Below the pieces are notes generated by a model. It made no database searches and was not told where the DNA came from. It saw only the letters and a program-made list of their open reading frames with translations. This document shows, piece by piece, positions 1 through 40,970 of a stretch of 41,015 nt of DNA. A program made the translations under genes and the position numbers. Where the stretch lies: assembly GCA_024280485.1 (NCBI GenBank), contig JAJRQB010000150.1, positions 1 to 41,015 of the forward strand, in the 5' to 3' direction. Position 1 is the first letter of the stretch. Every line of letters begins with the position of its first letter. The DNA is from Deltaproteobacteria bacterium. Lineage in GTDB: Bacteria; Desulfobacterota; Desulfuromonadia; Desulfuromonadales; Geopsychrobacteraceae.

Positions 1-281
1 ATGATGTCGGCGCCTGTTTCCGTTGAAATCATGACGACGGGAATGTCTTTAATCGAATCATCTTCGGATTTTGCTTTGAGAAATTCGAGGCCATTCATAT
101 TTGGCATATTGATATCGCTCAAGACAACATCGACAGTATTATTGGTGAGAACATCGAGAGCTTCCTGTCCATCCGCGGCTTCTAGAATTTCAGAAAAATC
201 GATTCCTGCCTGGCGCAGAGCACGTGCAACGATTTTGCGCATTGTGTTGGAATCATCGACAATAAGTACTGTTTTTCCCAT
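1..281 (-). CDS. CheY-like response regulator (3' end outside window)
   Basis: Single-domain receiver protein, the last gene of the first chemotaxis operon seen here. The acidic pair is D9/D10, the phospho-acceptor D56 lies in LSDINMP, and T87 closes beta-4 (VVMIST). The conserved lysine and the C-terminus lie beyond position 1. Length so far is 93 codons of an expected ~120. An AAGGAG ribosome binding site six bases before the ATG fixes the start. Its place after a CheX-like phosphatase gene suggests it is the CheY phosphorylated by the CheA encoded at 5142-7421, acting in the cytoplasm on a motor or another target. The role as the cluster's main output regulator is inferred from position only. 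The second receiver at 824-1198 is an equal candidate. Confidence 0.9.
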   Translation of the reverse strand, partial: MGKTVLIVDDSNTMRKIVARALRQAGIDFSEILEAADGQEALDVLTNNTVDVVLSDINMPNMNGLEFLKAKSEDDSIKDIPVVMISTETGADI

Positions 282-33484: not shown

Positions 33485-34549
33485 TTAAAGCTCAACCACC
33501 CAGTCGTGTTTGTCGGTTTGGCGGCCATATTGAATATCGGTCAGTTCCTTGTACAACTTCATCGTCAGCTCCCCCGGTTCGCCGTTGCCAAGCTGAACAC
33601 ATTTGTCCTTGTAGCAGAAGGAGCCAACCGGTGAGATAACGACAGCAGTGCCAGTGCCGAAAGCTTCTTTGAGGCGACCATTACCGGCACCTTCCATCAC
33701 TTCATCAACCGACAGTGCGCGCTCTTCGATCTTGTAGCCCATATCCTTCAGTAGATGCAGTACCGAGCGGCGGGTGATTCCATCCAGAACTGTCCCTTTG
33801 AGTGGTGAAGTGACGATCTTGTCATCGTAGAGGAAAATCATATTCATACTGCCGACCTCTTCGACATACTTCTTCTCGCGGGCATCGAGCCACAAGACCT
33901 GATCGTAGCCGTTTTCGGCAGCTTCTTTTGCTGCCATCAGGCTGGCGGCATAGTTCCCGCCAGTTTTTGCTTCACCGGTTCCGCCGTGGGCAGCACGCAC
34001 ATAGTGATCGGAGATCCAGATTTTGACCGGAGCAATCCCACCTTTGTAGTAGGCACCAACCGGAGAAAGGATGATATAACAGAGGTATTGATCTGCCGGG
34101 CGCACGCCGAGAAATGCCTCAGTGGCGATCATGGTCGGACGGATATAGAGACTGGTCCCCTCACTCTTCGGAACCCAGTCAGATTCGAGACGGATTAACT
34201 CAAGCAATGAGTCGAGAAAGAACTTTTCATCGACCTCAGGCATACACATCCTTGTCGCACTCCGATTGAAGCGCGAGATGTTATCCTGAGGGCGGAAGAG
34301 AGCAATTGAGCCGTCTGAGCGGCGGAAGGCTTTAAGCCCTTCAAAGATCTCTTGTGAGTAGTGAAGAACCGTGGCCGCCGGGTCGAGGGAGAAGGGACCA
34401 TAAGGCTGGATACGTGCCGAATGCCAGCCCTTTTTGCGGTCGAACTCCATGACGAACATGCGGTCGGTAAACTCGGTTCCGAAGGCCAGTTTTGATTCGT
34501 CATCGATCTTTGCTTTCGGAGTGCTGAGCGGAAGGATGTCACGTTTCAT
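33485..34549 (-). CDS. ilvE: Branched-chain amino acid aminotransferase
   Basis: A PLP enzyme that exchanges the amino group between glutamate and the 2-oxoacids of valine, leucine and isoleucine. It is of the larger (~350 aa) BCAT type. Key segments: EIFEGLKAFRRSDG (68-80), SLYIRPTMIAT, and GEAKTGGNYAAS with K195 as the PLP-binding lysine, followed by EEVGSMNMIF and PLKGTVLDGITR. The frame is open upstream to 34639, but the ATG at 34549 is preferred: GAGGG lies six bases before it and the family begins there. It is a single-gene unit with its own terminator. It uses glutamate, the product of the neighbouring operon. Confidence 0.95.
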   Translation of the reverse strand: MKRDILPLSTPKAKIDDESKLAFGTEFTDRMFVMEFDRKKGWHSARIQPYGPFSLDPAATVLHYSQEIFEGLKAFRRSDGSIALFRPQDNISRFNRSATRMCMPEVDEKFFLDSLLELIRLESDWVPKSEGTSLYIRPTMIATEAFLGVRPADQYLCYIILSPVGAYYKGGIAPVKIWISDHYVRAAHGGTGEAKTGGNYAASLMAAKEAAENGYDQVLWLDAREKKYVEEVGSMNMIFLYDDKIVTSPLKGTVLDGITRRSVLHLLKDMGYKIEERALSVDEVMEGAGNGRLKEAFGTGTAVVISPVGSFCYKDKCVQLGNGEPGELTMKLYKELTDIQYGRQTDKHDWVVEL

Positions 34550-34641
34550 TTTATGCCCTCGTGTACAGGAGATAGGGGAATTGTTGTTCTTAACATAAAC
34601 CGGACGGATGTCGCAAGATACAGAACCTTGTAAGATCATAA

Positions 34642-34813
34642 CTATAGCAGTCTGTCGGACTATACGGGCTGAAGCGAAAATTTGACTGGTTGAGGTCAGA
34701 TTTTGGCTGATTTAAGAGTAATAGCCGTAGCTATTGGTCGAAAAAGGAACCGAAATCTGGACCAATCAGACGAATTTGCAGCCAGTTCATGAATAGTCCT
34801 ACGGGCTGCTAGG
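34642..34813. mobile_element. Long imperfect palindrome, MITE-like element
   Basis: About 170 bases that fold back on themselves. The outer ends read CTATAGCAGTCTGTCGGACTAT and, on the other strand, CCTAGCAGCCCGTAGGACTAT (given here without further flanks). Inner arms GGTCAGATTTTGG (34695-34707 region) and the complement of CCGAAATCTGGACC (34750-34763) continue the pairing, and the centre is AATAGC-CGTA-GCTATT (34720-34735). A shortened relative lies at 37685-37752. No transposase is encoded, so a non-autonomous mobile element or a large REP-type sequence are both possible. Its right end reaches into the larA ribosome binding site. It fills most of the space between ilvE and larA. Confidence 0.7.
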
Positions 34814-34820
34814 GGGTTTT

Positions 34821-36095
34821 ATGCAGATTGAACTGAAATATGGTCATGCGACGCAGCGGGGTGAACTCCCTTTTGAGGCTGTAGAACTGCAACCTCAGAT
34901 AGCACTACCAAAGTTTAGTGCTGATGAGTTGATCAGGAAGGCACTTGATGCGCCGATCGGTGCCCCACCCATGAATGAGTCGTTCGACAAGGACGATCAA
35001 GTGGTGATTGTGACCAGTGATATCACCAGGTATACCGGCAGCGAAATCTACCTGCCGATACTGGTTGAGCAGCTTAATCGCTGTGGCATCGCTGATAGTC
35101 AAATCAGTATCCTGATCGCTCTGGGAATCCATCGGCCTCAGAGCGAAGCTGAATATCGAAAAATTCTTGGACCGCTTTACGGTCGCGTCGCGGTCTTCGA
35201 TCATGATTGCGATGATGAAGAGCAACTGGTTGAGTTGGGGGTGACCGCGGGGGGGATTCCGGTTTCGGTCAATCGCCGCCTGGTTGAAGCCGATCGTGTC
35301 ATTGTTAGCGGCACAGTTGGGTTCCATTATTTTGCCGGGTTTGGTGGTGGTCGTAAGGGCCTGGTGCCTGGTGTGGCGGCACGTAAAACCTGTATGGCAA
35401 GTCACTTTTCGGTATTCAATTCTGCTCCGCTGACAGGCAAGCATCCGCAGGCTGTTCCGGGGATTCTCGACAGTAATCCCGTTCATCACAATCTGCTTGA
35501 GGCCGCCCGTATGGTGCGCTGTGATCTGCTGCTTAATACCGTACTCTCCCCGCAAAAGGAGATTCTCGGGGTCTATGCCGGTGAGCTTGAACAGGCTCAT
35601 CTTGCCGCCTGTGCTCAGGTGCGCGAGCTTTATCAACCGACGACTGAGCTTGCTGACCTGGCGATAATCTCTAGTGGTGGCGAACCCAAAGATATGAATT
35701 TGATCCAGGCCCAAAAAGCACTCGATTACGGTTGTCGGGCGGTACGTGAGGGGGGCACAATCATTTTTCTGGCAGCTTGTCGCGATGGGTTTGGAAACGA
35801 GCACTTCTACTCCTGGTTTGATTATCAGGATCTCGATGATTTTGAAGAGGCATTGCGTGAGAATTACCAGATTAATGGCCAGACGGCTCATTCTCTGCTG
35901 AGCAAGGCGCGGCGATTTCGCGTGTTGCTGGTCAGTAGTTTTGATGCTGTGATCAGCGAACGAATGGGGATGGAGAAAGCCGCTGATCTTCAGCAGGCGA
36001 TCGAAATGTCACTGAGTGAGTTGCCTACTCAACCGAAAACCGTAGTTATCCCTGATGGCGGACTGGTGCTGCCGAAAATAGGTGGTAATCTTTAG
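34821..36095 (+). CDS. larA: LarA-family nickel-pincer racemase (probable lactate racemase)
   Basis: A 424-residue LarA-family protein, which interconverts D- and L-lactate (or a related 2-hydroxyacid) with a nickel-pincer nucleotide cofactor. Residues matching the Lactobacillus enzyme are present with the same spacings: D67 and R70 (DITR), H104 (GIHRP), H169 (GFHYF), K179 (GGGRKG, the cofactor-linked lysine) and H195 (ASHF, nickel ligand). The cofactor genes larB, larC and larE are not in the window and must be elsewhere. AGGGGG precedes the ATG and overlaps the repeat element. Downstream GlcD/GlcF-like genes fit a pathway that oxidises one lactate enantiomer. Other hydroxyacids remain possible. 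Confidence 0.87.
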   Translation: MQIELKYGHATQRGELPFEAVELQPQIALPKFSADELIRKALDAPIGAPPMNESFDKDDQVVIVTSDITRYTGSEIYLPILVEQLNRCGIADSQISILIALGIHRPQSEAEYRKILGPLYGRVAVFDHDCDDEEQLVELGVTAGGIPVSVNRRLVEADRVIVSGTVGFHYFAGFGGGRKGLVPGVAARKTCMASHFSVFNSAPLTGKHPQAVPGILDSNPVHHNLLEAARMVRCDLLLNTVLSPQKEILGVYAGELEQAHLAACAQVRELYQPTTELADLAIISSGGEPKDMNLIQAQKALDYGCRAVREGGTIIFLAACRDGFGNEHFYSWFDYQDLDDFEEALRENYQINGQTAHSLLSKARRFRVLLVSSFDAVISERMGMEKAADLQQAIEMSLSELPTQPKTVVIPDGGLVLPKIGGNL

Positions 36096-36140
36096 CACTG
36101 TTAAGAAGATGCTAATTTTGCTATGGGGAGAGAGTGCGGG

Positions 36141-37688
36141 ATGAATAAAGAAGAAGTGCTGCAGCAGGTGATTGATACGGGTTCACTGCCGACATTGTCG
36201 ACAGTGGCCTCCAAATTGATCAGCCTGACCGCTAAAGAGGATACAACGATATTTGACATCACCAAACTGATTTCACAGGATATTTCGTTGTCGGCCAAGG
36301 TGCTTAAGGTTGTTAATTCCTCTTTCTATAATTTCCCGAACGAGGTTGGTACTATTCAGCAGGCGGTCGCGATTCTCGGGACCAATGCGGTTCGTTCTCT
36401 GGTGCTCTCTTTTTCTTTTTTGAACATGGAGCGCGGTGTTGAACCTGATGGTTTCAGCTATGAGGAGTTCTGGGAACACTCTTTGGCCGCAGCTGTCTCC
36501 GCCAAGCTGTTGATGAGTAAAATCTGTGATGATGATACTGAAGAGGTCTTTACCGTCAGTTTACTGGCCAACCTTGGCAAGCTGATTCTGGCCTCTGCTT
36601 TTACAGATCGTTATAGTGACATCTTCAGTAAGGCAGCGCAGGGGGATAAAAGCCTGCATCAGCTTGAGGAAGAGTTGATCGGAGCCGATCATGCTTATAT
36701 CGGGTGTGAGGCGGCGCATCTCTGGCATTTTCCAGAAAGCCTGACCGTGCCCATCCTTAACCACCATAATCCTGAAAGTTATCAGGGCGATGATCCGGTT
36801 ATGAAACGAAATATTGAGATCGTCTACCTTGCAAGTCTGCTCGCCAATATCCTCTATTCGGGCAGGCCGATCGACTATCACCGCCCTTTTCGCGAACAGG
36901 CGAAGCAGCGTTTTTCTCTGGATGATGAAACGATCGATGATTTGTTGCAACGGGTTCATGTTGAGGTCGCTCAAGCCGCGGAGTTTTTCGGCATCAAAAT
37001 TGGGGGGACCTTGTCGATACCCGAACTCCTTCAGGAAGCAAATATTGAGCTCAGTCAACTCAATATGTCATATGAGCAGATCAACCGTGAGCTGGTTAAG
37101 GCCAAGGTCAAGCTTGAAAAATTGACTACCGAACTTGAAGAAAAAAATACCTACCTCGAAAGCATCGCCAATCTGGATGGTTTAACCGAGGTTTATAATC
37201 ATCGGTATTTTCAGATATTTCTTGAGAAAGAGCTCAATCGCTCACTACGGCGCGATCTGGAGATGAGTCTGATTTTGTGTGATATTGATAATTTCAAAAA
37301 ATTTAATGATTTTCATGGTCACCAAGTTGGAGATTTTGTTTTACGTGAAGTCTGCCGTGTCTGTAGTGAGCAGATTCGTGAATATGATCTTATTGCACGT
37401 TACGGCGGTGAAGAATTTGTTTTTGTACTCCCTGAAACGGGAGCTGATAACGCAATGATTGTTGCCGAAAAGTTGCGAGTGGCGGTTGCGACCGGAGAAT
37501 TCTTTTTTGAAAAGATGAGTTATCGGGTGACGATGAGTCTTGGTGTTGCCACTCTTCCTCCCGGAGGAAAAATAAAGCGCAGCGGATTGATTGAGGCCGC
37601 GGACAAGGCTCTTTACCAAGCGAAAAAGAAAGGCAAAAACTGCGTCGAGCTATACCAGGAGAAGAGCGGCTGGTTCAAGAGGCGCTAG
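36141..37688 (+). CDS. HDOD-GGDEF protein, probable diguanylate cyclase
   Basis: A 515-residue cytoplasmic protein. The HDOD domain fills about 10-290; where other HDODs keep HD this one reads LLANLGKLIL, so the metal pair is lost. A coiled coil (about 300-345) leads to a GGDEF domain (about 345-510) with an intact GGEEF active site (422-426) and an inhibitory RxxD site (R413-D416) exactly five residues before it. It should make cyclic di-GMP with product inhibition. The ATG at 36141 is preferred over 36123 because GGGGAGAG lies between them. The stop codon lies inside a repeat element. It follows larA by 45 bases, suggesting joint expression. Confidence 0.92.
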   Translation: MNKEEVLQQVIDTGSLPTLSTVASKLISLTAKEDTTIFDITKLISQDISLSAKVLKVVNSSFYNFPNEVGTIQQAVAILGTNAVRSLVLSFSFLNMERGVEPDGFSYEEFWEHSLAAAVSAKLLMSKICDDDTEEVFTVSLLANLGKLILASAFTDRYSDIFSKAAQGDKSLHQLEEELIGADHAYIGCEAAHLWHFPESLTVPILNHHNPESYQGDDPVMKRNIEIVYLASLLANILYSGRPIDYHRPFREQAKQRFSLDDETIDDLLQRVHVEVAQAAEFFGIKIGGTLSIPELLQEANIELSQLNMSYEQINRELVKAKVKLEKLTTELEEKNTYLESIANLDGLTEVYNHRYFQIFLEKELNRSLRRDLEMSLILCDIDNFKKFNDFHGHQVGDFVLREVCRVCSEQIREYDLIARYGGEEFVFVLPETGADNAMIVAEKLRVAVATGEFFFEKMSYRVTMSLGVATLPPGGKIKRSGLIEAADKALYQAKKKGKNCVELYQEKSGWFKRR

Positions 37689-37752
37689 GAAGCTGTCGGA
37701 CTATCCATGAGCTGGCTGCAAATCCGGCCCGCATAGTCCGACAGACTCCTAG
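37685..37752. repeat. Short palindromic element related to 34642-34813
   Basis: Left end CTAGGAAGCTGTCGGACTAT and right end, read on the other strand, CTAGGAGTCTGTCGGACTAT differ at two of 20 positions and enclose 28 bases. The interior (CCATGAGCTGGCTGCAAATC) matches one arm of the longer element upstream of larA, so this is an internally shortened member of the same family. The left end contains the stop codon of the GGDEF gene. As RNA it would form a strong hairpin but lacks a T-run. Confidence 0.75.
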
Positions 37753-37763
37753 AGTGGGCTGCT

Positions 37764-37796
37764 GGACATTTGTCCTTCTCCTGTTCAATAATGAAC
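37764..37796. promoter_or_regulatory. Two small palindromes upstream of the glcD-like gene
   Basis: GGACATTTGTCC (37764-37775) is a perfect palindrome, and GTTCA-ATAA-TGAAC (37783-37796) has perfect five-base arms. They are 7 bases apart and 80-110 bases before the ATG, a usual place for operators. No regulator family can be named from the sequences, and no good promoter hexamers were found next to them. Confidence 0.35.
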
Positions 37797-37810
37797 TTGT
37801 TACCAATTTC

Positions 37811-37850
37811 GGGGTGCAGGTGCCTCACGCGAGGTGTTGCGCCCTTTTCA
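37811..37850 (+). terminator. Hairpin with T-run just before the glcD-like gene
   Basis: GGGTGCA (37812-37818) pairs with TGCGCCC (37838-37844), with an inner CCTC/GAGG stem and loop ACGC, and is followed by TTTTCATTT. It resembles a rho-independent terminator. It ends the larA-GGDEF unit or, because it lies only ~28 bases before the next ATG, it could act as an attenuator in the leader of the glcD-like gene. Confidence 0.5.
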
Positions 37851-37877
37851 TTTAGCTTTTGAGTCCAGGGAATTAAG

Positions 37878-39260
37878 ATGATCGAAGCCCGAATCATTCG
37901 GATTTTAAGTGATATTGTCGGTAAAGAGAATGTCACCACACAAAAAGCCGATCTGCTCTGTTACAGCTACGATGCCACTCAATTAAAATTTCTGCCCGAT
38001 GTGGTGGTACATCCCCTGACGGCAGAAGAAATTTCGTTGATGATGAAGATGGCCAATGCCGAGAAAATTCCGGTTTTTCCGCGTGGCGCTGGAAGCGGAT
38101 TTACCGGGGGCAGTTTGCCGGTCACTGGCGGGATAGTTCTCGCCACCGAACGGATGAACCGGATAATTGAAATCGACAGTGAAAATCTGGTGGCAACCGT
38201 TGAGCCGGGGGTGGTGACTGGGCAGTTTCAGCAGGCCGTAGAGAAGCTCGGGCTCTTCTATCCGCCCGACCCGGCTTCGCTTAAGTTTTCTACGCTTGGC
38301 GGAAATGTCGCTGAATGCGCTGGCGGGCCGCGCTGTGTGAAGTACGGTGTGACCAAAGATTTTATTATCGGGCTCCAGATTGTTACGCCACAGGGAGATA
38401 TCATTACGACCGGTGGACCGACGATGAAGGGTGTGGTCGGCTATGATCTGACCAAGTTGATCTGTGGCAGTGAGGGCACCCTCGGTATTATCACGCGCAT
38501 CATTATTAAATTACTGCCGCTCCCTGAAGCCAAGCAGACCATGCTGGTGATGTTCGACTCGATTGATGGTGCGGCGCAGTCAGTCTCAGCGATCATCGGC
38601 AATAAAATTATTCCGGCGACCCTTGAATTCATGGATGGCCGTACGATCGACTGTGTGCGTCAAGCGACCGATTTTCAGGTTCCTGAAGCAGCACGAGCGT
38701 TGTTGATCATCGAGGTCGACGGTGATCGTGAATTTCTTGAGAAGCAGGTCCAGAAAATCACTGATATTATCCAACCTCTCGGCGTTGTGGAGACGCGCGT
38801 CGCCACAACGGCGGCCGAAAGTGAAGCACTGTGGCAGATTCGACGTTCGGTTTCGGCGTCGTTGCGCAAGGTCAACCCGGACAAATTCAATGAGGATATC
38901 TGCGTGCCCCGTTCGAAGGTACCGGAGATGATCCGTAAGGTTGATGCCATCAGCGAAAAATATGGTATTCCGATTGTTAACTTCGGCCACGCCGGTGATG
39001 GCAATATTCATGTCAACGTAATGATCGACAAAAAAGTGCCAGGCGAAGCTGAAAAAGCTGAAAAGGCGATCGAAGAGGTATTCAAGGGTGCCTTAGCACT
39101 GGGTGGGACTATGAGTGGCGAGCATGGCGTTGGCATTGCCAAGGCTCCTTACATCCCGCTTGAGATCACTGAGAAAGCATCTGACTACATGAAGGCGATC
39201 AAAAAAGCTCTCGATCCGAACAATATTTTGAACCCCGGGAAGATATTTTTGGATCAGTAA
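37878..39260 (+). CDS. glcD: FAD-linked 2-hydroxyacid dehydrogenase, GlcD/D-lactate dehydrogenase type
   Basis: A 460-residue flavoprotein of the GlcD/Dld family, which oxidises D-lactate, glycolate or a similar 2-hydroxyacid. The FAD-binding segment PRGAGSGFTGG (68-78), the GGNVAECAGGPRCVKYG loop and the KLICGSEGTLGIITR strand belong to the N-terminal FAD domain. The C-terminal catalytic domain has NFGHAGDGNIHVNV and GEHGVGIAK, with histidines for metal or substrate. AGGGA lies six bases before the ATG. It pairs with the Fe-S gene downstream, the usual electron acceptor. A racemase of the LarA family upstream points to lactate as substrate, though glycolate or 2-hydroxyglutarate remain possible. 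Confidence 0.9.
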   Translation: MIEARIIRILSDIVGKENVTTQKADLLCYSYDATQLKFLPDVVVHPLTAEEISLMMKMANAEKIPVFPRGAGSGFTGGSLPVTGGIVLATERMNRIIEIDSENLVATVEPGVVTGQFQQAVEKLGLFYPPDPASLKFSTLGGNVAECAGGPRCVKYGVTKDFIIGLQIVTPQGDIITTGGPTMKGVVGYDLTKLICGSEGTLGIITRIIIKLLPLPEAKQTMLVMFDSIDGAAQSVSAIIGNKIIPATLEFMDGRTIDCVRQATDFQVPEAARALLIIEVDGDREFLEKQVQKITDIIQPLGVVETRVATTAAESEALWQIRRSVSASLRKVNPDKFNEDICVPRSKVPEMIRKVDAISEKYGIPIVNFGHAGDGNIHVNVMIDKKVPGEAEKAEKAIEEVFKGALALGGTMSGEHGVGIAKAPYIPLEITEKASDYMKAIKKALDPNNILNPGKIFLDQ

Positions 39261-39437: not shown

Positions 39438-40697
39438 ATGGCGAAATTAAAAGACTTAGAAGATTACCGCGAAGAGATTGAACAGTGCGTTAAATGTGGT
39501 GCCTGCAGAGCCCACTGTCCGGTGTTTGATGCCGAGCGACGCGAAGGCCGGGTTGCGCGTGGCAAGATTGCGCTTTCTCAGGCTGTGCTAGAGGGTGAAA
39601 TCGATTTCGAAGCCAAGGTGATGGAAGACCTCAGCCAGTGTCTGCTCTGCGGGAGTTGCTGCGCCGGGTGCCCTAACAAGGTGCCGACCGAAGAGATTGT
39701 GGCCGCTGCGCGCCGCCGGATCGCTGAGGAGAAGGGGTTATCGACCTTCGGTAAGGGAGTTGCAGCAGTGATCGGTCGCCCGAAGTTGATGAATGCTCTG
39801 GCTAAGACAGGCGGGAAACTGTCGAGCTTGCTATTTAAGAAATTACCTGACAACAGCGGCCTGCGTTTACGTTTTCCGGTGCCCTACCTTGAATCGGGAC
39901 GAACCCTGCCACCATTTACCGATAAGCCTTTTCGCGAGAACTGCCCTGATCGGATCGAGGGTGATCCGGGCAAGCCGACGGTCGCTTTCTTTACCGGTTG
40001 CGGAATCAATTACATGTACCCGGCAGTCGGCGAAGCGTTCCTGAAGGCGTTAAAATTTCTTGGTATCACTGTCGTGATCCCTAAGGACCAGGTCTGCTGT
40101 GGCTTACCTGCAGTCTCCGCTGGAGCGGGTAAAACGGTTGAAGCTTTGGCTGACCAGAACTATGCCGCACTGACCCGTGAGCCGGTCGATTATATCCTGA
40201 CCGCATGTGCCTCCTGTAACGCCGGACTGGTTAAGGTCTATGGGGATATGGAGGGAGAGTGCTCCGCTCTGGGGCCACAGACGCGGGATATTTTTGTTTT
40301 TTTGCTCGAGCAGGGGTTGGCCGAAAAGTTGGCGGAACTTCCGCGTGCAGCAAAAAGAAAAATTGTAACCTATCACGATCCTTGTCATCTACGGACTCAA
40401 GGGATTACGAAAGAACCGCGTGATGTGCTCAAGGCGCTGCCCCAGGTCGAGTATGTCGAAATGGAAAATGCCGGGAGCTGCTGTGGACTGGGCGGAACCT
40501 ATTCAGTTTATCACTATGAAAACAGCAAGATAATTGGTGCCAAAAAGGCGGGGAATATCGAATCTTCAGGCGCGGAGTTGGTCGCCACTGACTGCCCGGG
40601 GTGTATCATGCAGCTGCAGGATTCAATAAATCATGCCGCTGGCAACCAACGCGCGGTGCATATTCTTGAATTGTTGAATGAGGCCCTGCCAGATTAG
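39438..40697 (+). CDS. glcF: Fe-S oxidoreductase, GlcF-like, with two CCG domains
   Basis: A 419-residue protein that passes electrons from the flavoprotein to the quinone pool or another carrier. The N-terminus holds two [4Fe-4S] motifs (C17, C20, C23, C27 and C68, C71, C74, C78). Two cysteine-rich CCG domains follow, seen as FFTGCGINY with VCCGLPA, and YHDPCHL with GSCCGLGGTY, as in GlcF, HdrB and LutA. No transmembrane helix is apparent, so contact with the membrane would be peripheral. The ribosome binding site is weak. The gene is separated from the glcD-like gene by 177 bases that contain a repeat. Paired function with that flavoprotein is inferred from family and order. Confidence 0.9.
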   Translation: MAKLKDLEDYREEIEQCVKCGACRAHCPVFDAERREGRVARGKIALSQAVLEGEIDFEAKVMEDLSQCLLCGSCCAGCPNKVPTEEIVAAARRRIAEEKGLSTFGKGVAAVIGRPKLMNALAKTGGKLSSLLFKKLPDNSGLRLRFPVPYLESGRTLPPFTDKPFRENCPDRIEGDPGKPTVAFFTGCGINYMYPAVGEAFLKALKFLGITVVIPKDQVCCGLPAVSAGAGKTVEALADQNYAALTREPVDYILTACASCNAGLVKVYGDMEGECSALGPQTRDIFVFLLEQGLAEKLAELPRAAKRKIVTYHDPCHLRTQGITKEPRDVLKALPQVEYVEMENAGSCCGLGGTYSVYHYENSKIIGAKKAGNIESSGAELVATDCPGCIMQLQDSINHAAGNQRAVHILELLNEALPD

Positions 40698-40705
40698 GTC
40701 AAGGT

Positions 40706-40829
40706 CGGCCTCGCGCAGAGACGCGAAGACGCAGAGAAAAGCACAAACTACACCTGGGTTTGACCCAACCCTAAAAACAGAGCACCTTGTCGTTGACTCA
40801 GCTCTTCTCTGCGGCTCTGCGCGAGATAG
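40706..40829. repeat. Palindromic AGACGCAGAG-family repeat, copy 2
   Basis: The left arm (40708-40738) begins GCCTCGCGCAGAGACGCGAAG and ends GACGCAGAGAA. The right arm (40803-40829), read on the other strand, gives TCTCGCGCAGAGCCGCAGAG. The ends match those of copy 1 (CTCTGCGCGAGxxxGCTTTT on the right). The two copies flank the glcF-like gene in the same orientation. The ~65-base middle differs between copies. Confidence 0.72.
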
Positions 40830-40900
40830 CTTTTATTGTTCCATCACGCTAGTAAAAACTATGGACTTTAGTCTAAGTCTTTCAGATGCTACTCATATTT

Positions 40901-40970
40901 CGTCATTCCCGCGAAGGCGGGAATCCAGTGGTTTTAAGAGGCGTGGATCCCCGCTTTCGCGAGGATGACG
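40901..40970. repeat. Palindromic CGTCATTCCCGCGAA-type repeat
   Basis: Two 27-base arms, 40901-40927 (starting CGTCATTCCCGCGAAGGCGG) and 40944-40970 (its near complement, ending CTTTCGCGAGGATGACG), differ at only four positions and are 16 bases apart. This sequence type is a widespread intergenic palindromic repeat in proteobacterial and related genomes. No gene is attached. Confidence 0.8.

Follow-up and report, generated by a model that had tools for sequence, protein, structure and literature searches.

Positions 1 to 41,015 of contig JAJRQB010000150.1 (hereafter the window), from the draft genome (178 contigs) of a Deltaproteobacteria bacterium of the Geopsychrobacteraceae, carry two related palindromes, one just before larA and one at the end of the adjacent HDOD-GGDEF gene. 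We conclude that these are very probably separate insertions of a gene-less miniature inverted-repeat transposable element (MITE), presumably moved in trans by IS1182-family transposases into CTAG-like targets. The element is dispersed through its genome at a near-fixed length, has empty sites in a close relative and ends that match those of IS1182 elements, and shows paired substitutions that preserve its hairpin; its two copies in the window differ in age. Below, G numbers denote genomes of the family (G000 being the window's own) and L numbers denote loci or stretches.

A dispersed palindromic element and its candidate mobiliser

The two elements comprise the following features.

34645..34812, plus strand: full-length MITE copy, a 168-bp imperfect palindrome in sense orientation relative to larA, its end 8 bp upstream of the larA ATG
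34645-34811, plus strand: TA-to-TA unit of the full-length copy, 167 bp
34645..34663, plus strand: left terminal inverted repeat of the full-length copy, TAGCAGTCTGTCGGACTAT
34793..34811, minus strand: right terminal inverted repeat of the full-length copy, imperfect
37685..37752, minus strand: 68-bp derivative of the element, shortened by an internal deletion and located at the GGDEF gene's TAG stop codon

An earlier model-made reading of the letters (the original prediction) had placed a ~170-bp palindrome before larA, starting at 34642, and a 68-bp relative at the end of the HDOD-GGDEF gene, sharing ends and an arm. Both are present, the longer one imperfect and starting at 34645, and their kinship is borne out by the complementarity between them (81% for 34771-34812 with 37685-37726, 90% for 34641-34669 with 37727-37755). 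Folded as single-stranded DNA, the full palindrome (34640-34815) reached -35.3 kcal/mol, compared with -16.6 ± 3.0 for its shuffles (z -6.2), while the short element (37680-37760), whose 20-bp end arms are 90% complementary, gave a z of -3.8. Model R1 scored the full-length copy at 142.5 bits on the plus strand and 56.8 bits on the minus strand, and the short copy higher on the minus strand (49.3 vs 38.3 bits). In the short element, whose orientation is opposite to that of the long copy, the 3' arm of the full palindrome (profile positions 125-168, minus strand) comes first and, by reading, about 25 nt of the 5' arm come next; the deletion in it was spanned only by its own match, the other matches covering one arm. 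It may have arisen by deletion in place, and would then no longer be mobile. The full copy probably falls within the larA leader, at a predicted position in the 5' untranslated region directly before the Shine-Dalgarno sequence. Rfam gave two matches in 34500-37900, both far under the gathering score and outside the elements, and no match at gathering score in seven element loci.

BLAST with the element returned 40 matches in its own genome. With a profile derived from 23 copies, 41 sites in the stretches searched scored above 90 bits, of which L111 is partial. Measured from TA to TA, the other 40 were 167 bp long in 30 cases, 166 in five, 168 in three, 165 in one and 169 in one, with 36 of 40 at 165-167 bp. 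The element is therefore a short, multi-copy sequence without coding capacity (165-169 bp being too short for a transposase), and it is bounded by terminal inverted repeats. In the closed genome G017, of the same genus, 16 matches exceeded 80 bits, 15 of them 165-167 bp long and one 179 bp, followed by one short and one weak 177-bp match; six of these 16 full-length copies lie within ~0.27 Mb (G017:C1, 3.24-3.51 Mb), and the split of 11 lagging versus five leading replication strands, counted by eye, was not significant by our reckoning. Across the family, 25/44 genomes from 4/10 genera had a BLAST match (E ≤ 0.001). By a crude gene caller, which also underlies the stop-codon and orientation counts, 39/40 own copies were intergenic and one intragenic. 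As raw counts, 13/40 own copies, and 6/20 and 6/17 copies of two other groups, had a stop codon no more than 6 bp from one of their ends, the 6/17 being the gamma-type copies L134, L179, L216 and L233 (Halomonas), L127 and L138. Orientation to neighbouring genes was unbiased, with 54 sense and 58 antisense relations within 300 bp when the three groups were summed.

Insertion polymorphism was evident in G023, the closest of the eight other genus genomes by LarA (92%), with ~93% identity around the locus. Joined flanks were sought there for 23 of the 41 copies and located for 20, three not being found; 12 of the 20 sites were empty, seven were occupied in both genomes (one by end sequence only) and one was ambiguous (L082). 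The empty sites read CTAG in five cases and CTAA in two. Among the 41 copies, the left end read CTAG in 27, the right end CTAG in 20 and CTAA in seven, and 14 copies combined CTA on the left with a right-hand TAG. In the end tetranucleotide, the inner bases were kept more often than the outer ones (77/82 and 62/82, hand count), a pattern in line with a 2-bp duplication inside a preferred CTAG.

The two copies in the window are themselves of different age. The larA leader of G023 is an additional empty site, reading AACTAGGGGG in place of the long element, which is also absent from the aligned larA leaders of G017, G019, G021, G022 and G024. G023 has the short element, in a form 8 bp longer, but G024 and G019, which read GCTAGAGG at that site, lack it; it is absent from G020, G021 and G022 too, the alignment being poor at that point. 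Judging by its presence in G023 and absence from G024 and G019, the short insertion therefore goes back to before the split from G023, and the long one is younger, or was lost from G023. This supports the independent insertion of the two elements that had been offered as one possibility.

The link to IS1182 comes from the element's ends. A scan of a genome collection for the end sequence TAGSAGNCTGTCGGACTWNNCG yielded at least 118 stretches holding 120 exact ends, each of which was paired with the closest end in inverted orientation, allowing up to 4 mismatches and a distance of 40-4000 bp; choosing the closest favours short pairs. Among the matches listed there were 72 end pairs and 48 unpaired ends, many of these near a contig end; 42/72 pairs were 165-167 bp long and 4/72 were 1598-1714 bp. 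All four long pairs among these matches contain an IS1182-type transposase: three pass the NCBI IS1182 model NF033551 (322-368 bits, cut-off 270), and the fourth (L207) matches such a transposase over 233 residues by tblastn. Six of the listed stretches (at least 118) contain an IS1182-type transposase, in each case adjoining the end. A 1599-bp pair in L179, which contains other genes, was a chance pairing that disappeared once the nearest end was taken, and pairs of 3443 and 3495 bp contained no IS1182 transposase by tblastn. Within the family, an IS1182 protein profile matched in 9/44 genomes. Eight of the matches fall in the window's genus, and five of these (two in G024, two in G019, one in G023) adjoin an end one mismatch from that of the MITE, so that 3/8 other genus genomes hold IS1182 remnants with matching ends; at the remaining loci of the family search no such end was found within 3 mismatches. 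The element and autonomous IS1182 elements thus have their ends in common. In the mechanism we propose, IS1182-family transposases would recognise the element's ends (TAG-S-AG-N-CTGTCGGACT), move it in trans and insert it into CTAG-like targets, its actual mover presumably being one of them.

Several observations weigh against this assignment. The IS1182 profile had no match in G000 itself, an assembly of 178 contigs that may lose repeats. The genus copies that carry matching ends are fragmentary, broken or truncated at contig ends, and the three G020 matches, parts of a more distant transposase, lack such ends. Insertion sequence and MITE have only the ends (~17 bp) in common, the MITE interior being, by reading, no remnant of the former. 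Five of the 12 empty G023 sites read neither CTAG nor CTAA, the left junction in the window is CTATAG where CTAG is expected, and the target duplication is compatible with two (TA) or four (CTAG) bases. Targets of 4 bp are reported for the IS1182 elements ISPse1 (PMC3281130) and ISPsy36 (GGCC; PMC8027508).

The hairpin and its spread across phyla

The interiors of 63 of the listed pairs (40-320 bp) were clustered by single linkage at 62%. Among the matches listed, 39/63 interiors fell into one group, 37 of them 165-167 bp long, from both Desulfuromonadales (Desulfuromonas, Geopsychrobacter, Desulfuromusa, Geothermobacter and others, with L197 labelled Chloroflexi) and Gammaproteobacteria (Halomonas, Billgrantia, Pseudomonas, Neptunomonas, Thiohalomonas, an Osedax symbiont and others). 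Gamma-type interiors were 53-65% identical to the window copy, compared with 49 ± 4% (maximum 58%) for shuffles, the lowest values not being significant alone; the intermediates L133, L230 and L231 link the two sides, and the alignment has common blocks. A covariance model found matches in 17/18 genomes (2-147 each, both strands counted), of which 17 had been preselected by the scan as element-bearing and the eighteenth, Methylobacter, was the miss. With the window copy as query no plasmid matched, whereas a gamma-type query matched two Pseudomonas plasmid records (79% and 75% identity) and no phage; a stricter end pattern had no match in viral contigs.

Other interiors with the same ends were found among the matches listed, namely in Methylobacter (167 bp, four in one genome), in Betaproteobacteria (208-210 bp, six) and in 14 singletons; the 208-210-bp pairs and 144-bp pairs form other interior clusters. 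Helical phasing is a purely conjectural reason for the fixed length. The Methylobacter elements (L136, L199, L201, L218) fold no better than shuffles, and length alone may matter. The betaproteobacterial ones (L154, L165, L200, L222, L235, L236) are a second family, in which an inverted copy of the end sequence is nested near the left end.

To describe the hairpin we used an alignment of 44 rows, 26 Desulfuromonadales-type (including 11 of the 40 own copies) and 18 gamma-type, covering 33 of 37 named family members. The predicted hairpin has 50 pairs, 31 of them changed on both sides, and 93.9% of alignment cells pair. Covariation was 0.441, compared with 0.181 ± 0.008 when shuffled and at most 0.155 when slid, figures that are flattered since this alignment also served to predict the structure; moreover, the rows are related, so that p values mean little and the two clades amount to at most a few independent cases. 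As RNA, the forward strand folded better than the reverse in 44/44 rows (means -84.6 vs -66.0) and in 40/40 own copies, and with DNA parameters in 26/26 Desulfuromonadales-type and 16/18 gamma-type rows, and because the preference holds under both parameter sets, it does not distinguish RNA from single-stranded DNA. Interiors stripped of their ends had z below -2 in 26/26 Desulfuromonadales-type and 14/18 gamma-type rows on the forward strand, and in 19/26 and 11/18 on the reverse; with DNA parameters and the strand given by the scan (mostly reverse for gamma), z was below -2 in 6/20 gamma and 16/17 named Desulfuromonadales-type interiors. When pairing received no G.U credit, G.T exceeded A.C mismatches 171:71 and 76:35, the ratios expected from composition being 1.36 and 1.21. 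A wobble pair (U.G or G.U) at columns 77-94 was kept in 37/44 rows.

Consistently with these features, we tentatively put forward, as a possible rather than a probable reading, that a MITE lineage spanning Desulfuromonadales and Gammaproteobacteria keeps a strand-specific hairpin (RNA or single-stranded DNA) and a fixed length of 165-167 bp through compensatory changes, both being needed for mobilisation by IS1182 transposases. Our best guess is that length and hairpin would be retained because elements that have them mobilise better. Among the 40 own copies, private mutations gave G.U and A.C in a ratio of 7:13 and shared ones 17:6 (Fisher p 0.015), and when strand-neutral pairs were counted the same comparison gave 9:14 and 20:13 (p 0.17). 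The hairpin is thus not spared by private mutations, as it should be were single copies maintained by the host, and is favoured in shared ones, which suggests, within the limits of a weak private-versus-shared test, that selection acts on the spreading lineage and not on resident copies.

It is also conceivable, though we consider it rather unlikely, that the paired changes were never selected. Template-switch correction between the arms of a palindrome is a known mutational process; by copying one arm onto the other it would preserve complementarity by itself, and the absence of an orientation bias to genes is in keeping with it. It leaves unexplained, however, why one strand folds better in every row, why G.T outnumbers A.C beyond composition, why the wobble pair is kept and why length is conserved as well. 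Improbable in our judgement is a regulatory RNA hairpin that serves the host in mRNA leaders and 3' ends. The better folding of one strand and the stop codons close to element ends would suit such a role, and transcript-level action has been proposed for the hairpins of YPAL, ERIC and Correia elements; but orientation to genes is unbiased, private mutations do not favour the hairpin by either count, and many sites are empty in a close relative.

MITEs are usually viewed as deletion leftovers of local insertion sequences. Here, length is constant to a base or two and the hairpin is held by paired changes despite the low gamma-to-window interior identity. The role of a MITE interior in transposition, beyond its ends, thereby becomes directly testable. 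If our tentative reading is right, the element is a structured selfish element rather than a decayed transposon remnant. The family would also form an IS1182-linked repeat that can be annotated in many genomes.

Precedents among known elements

The class of element is already known, and in the open-access literature we found no description of this element, nor of its cross-phylum identity, near-fixed length or strand-specific covariation. The comparisons that follow draw on the parts of the cited reports available to us. The nearest precedent is a pair of MITEs of Methanosarcina acetivorans (160 and 169 bp long, in 14 and 7 copies, with terminal repeats of 26 and 25 bp and, in one, a 4-bp duplication), likewise non-autonomous, of similar length and with IS1182 as putative partner (PMC3852290). 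They differ in their archaeal host, and in that account neither a conserved hairpin nor spread to another phylum is reported, the likeness being judged by description only. YPAL/RU-2 of Yersinia is also hairpin-forming, mobile, intergenic and ~168 bp long, but lacks TA ends and makes duplications of 3-26 bp (PMC2759123, PMC2229807); a local comparison with one YPAL sequence found no similarity (best score 22, shuffles 21.5 ± 2.1). ERIC (RU-1) and Correia/NEMIS are miniature, mostly intergenic elements with TA ends and a long RNA hairpin that, compared by description only, differ in length (127 bp and 107/155 bp; PMC2229807, PMC2759123). The Chunjie MITE of Geobacter uraniireducens resembles the present element in being a multi-copy MITE (1 + 37 copies in its Geobacter host) and differs, again by description only, in its full length of 235 bp and variable size (PMC10969869).

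Other transposases and the larA-GGDEF locus

IS630 and some IS5 groups are likewise known to have TA at both ends and to use CTAG targets, and a transposase of one of these types could in principle mobilise the element. We regard this as very improbable, given that the matching ends are carried by IS1182 elements. The IS630-type PF13358 matches in G019, G020 and G021 (3/9 genus genomes) carry no matching ends. For IS5/IS427, PF13340 had no match in the nine genus genomes, in a search that left aside other IS5-type models (e.g. PF01609 alone). Whole-genome profile searches found neither PF13358 nor PF13340 in G000.

The genes between the two elements, which lie outside them, carry the domains that had been anticipated.

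34821..36095, plus strand: larA (PF09861, PF21113; Lar_N and LarA_C)
36144..37688, plus strand: HDOD-GGDEF gene (PF08668, PF00990)

By domain matches, the downstream neighbours are an FAD-linked oxidase and an Fe-S protein, and a divergent class IV aminotransferase lies upstream. In keeping with the earlier statement that no transposase is present, larA and the GGDEF gene fill the interval, whose other open reading frames were not scanned for transposase domains. The order aminotransferase, larA, GGDEF, FAD oxidase recurs through the family whether or not elements are present. Adjacency of larA and the GGDEF gene, counted by eye from match coordinates, was seen in 25 genomes besides G000, although six of them (G005, G016, G018, G024, G034, G039) have one of the two genes in fragmentary or split form or truncated at a contig end. 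BLAST detected no element in nine of the 25 (G005, G007, G010, G018, G025, G028, G031, G039, G042). When 50 stretches containing larA loci were searched by profile, the element turned up nowhere but in the window's own locus and, as the short copy, in G023.

The original prediction had raised the idea of a mobile cassette, with the two elements as its ends, that brought larA and the GGDEF gene to their present site. The elements do bracket precisely these two genes, and the pair is not universal, G017 (same genus) keeping larA with no close GGDEF relative and G003, G014, G027 and G043 having the GGDEF gene without larA beside it; the cassette is nonetheless almost certainly wrong and can be abandoned, because the G023 locus, with the same gene order and the short element alone, and the nine genomes with no element detected share the adjacency, and the two insertions differ in age. 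Genome-wide intergenic dispersal and adjacency without elements, the two outcomes named in advance as telling against a cassette, were both found. Nor is its other suggestion, a shared targeting of operon borders, needed, the target being CTAG-like and lying mostly between genes or at a TAG stop codon.

Elsewhere at these loci, larA is reduced to short fragments beside an intact GGDEF gene in L058 (G024 C62). A small hairpin with MITE-like ends lies in the larA leader of L061 (G020 C349, ~1210-1260), near the position of the window copy; the profile search of larA-locus stretches did not report it, and it is perhaps an independent, heavily deleted insertion. In the window itself, a spurious-looking open reading frame at 40678-40968 has a repeat-like end (FPRRRESSGFKRRGSPLSRG) and perhaps marks another dispersed repeat.

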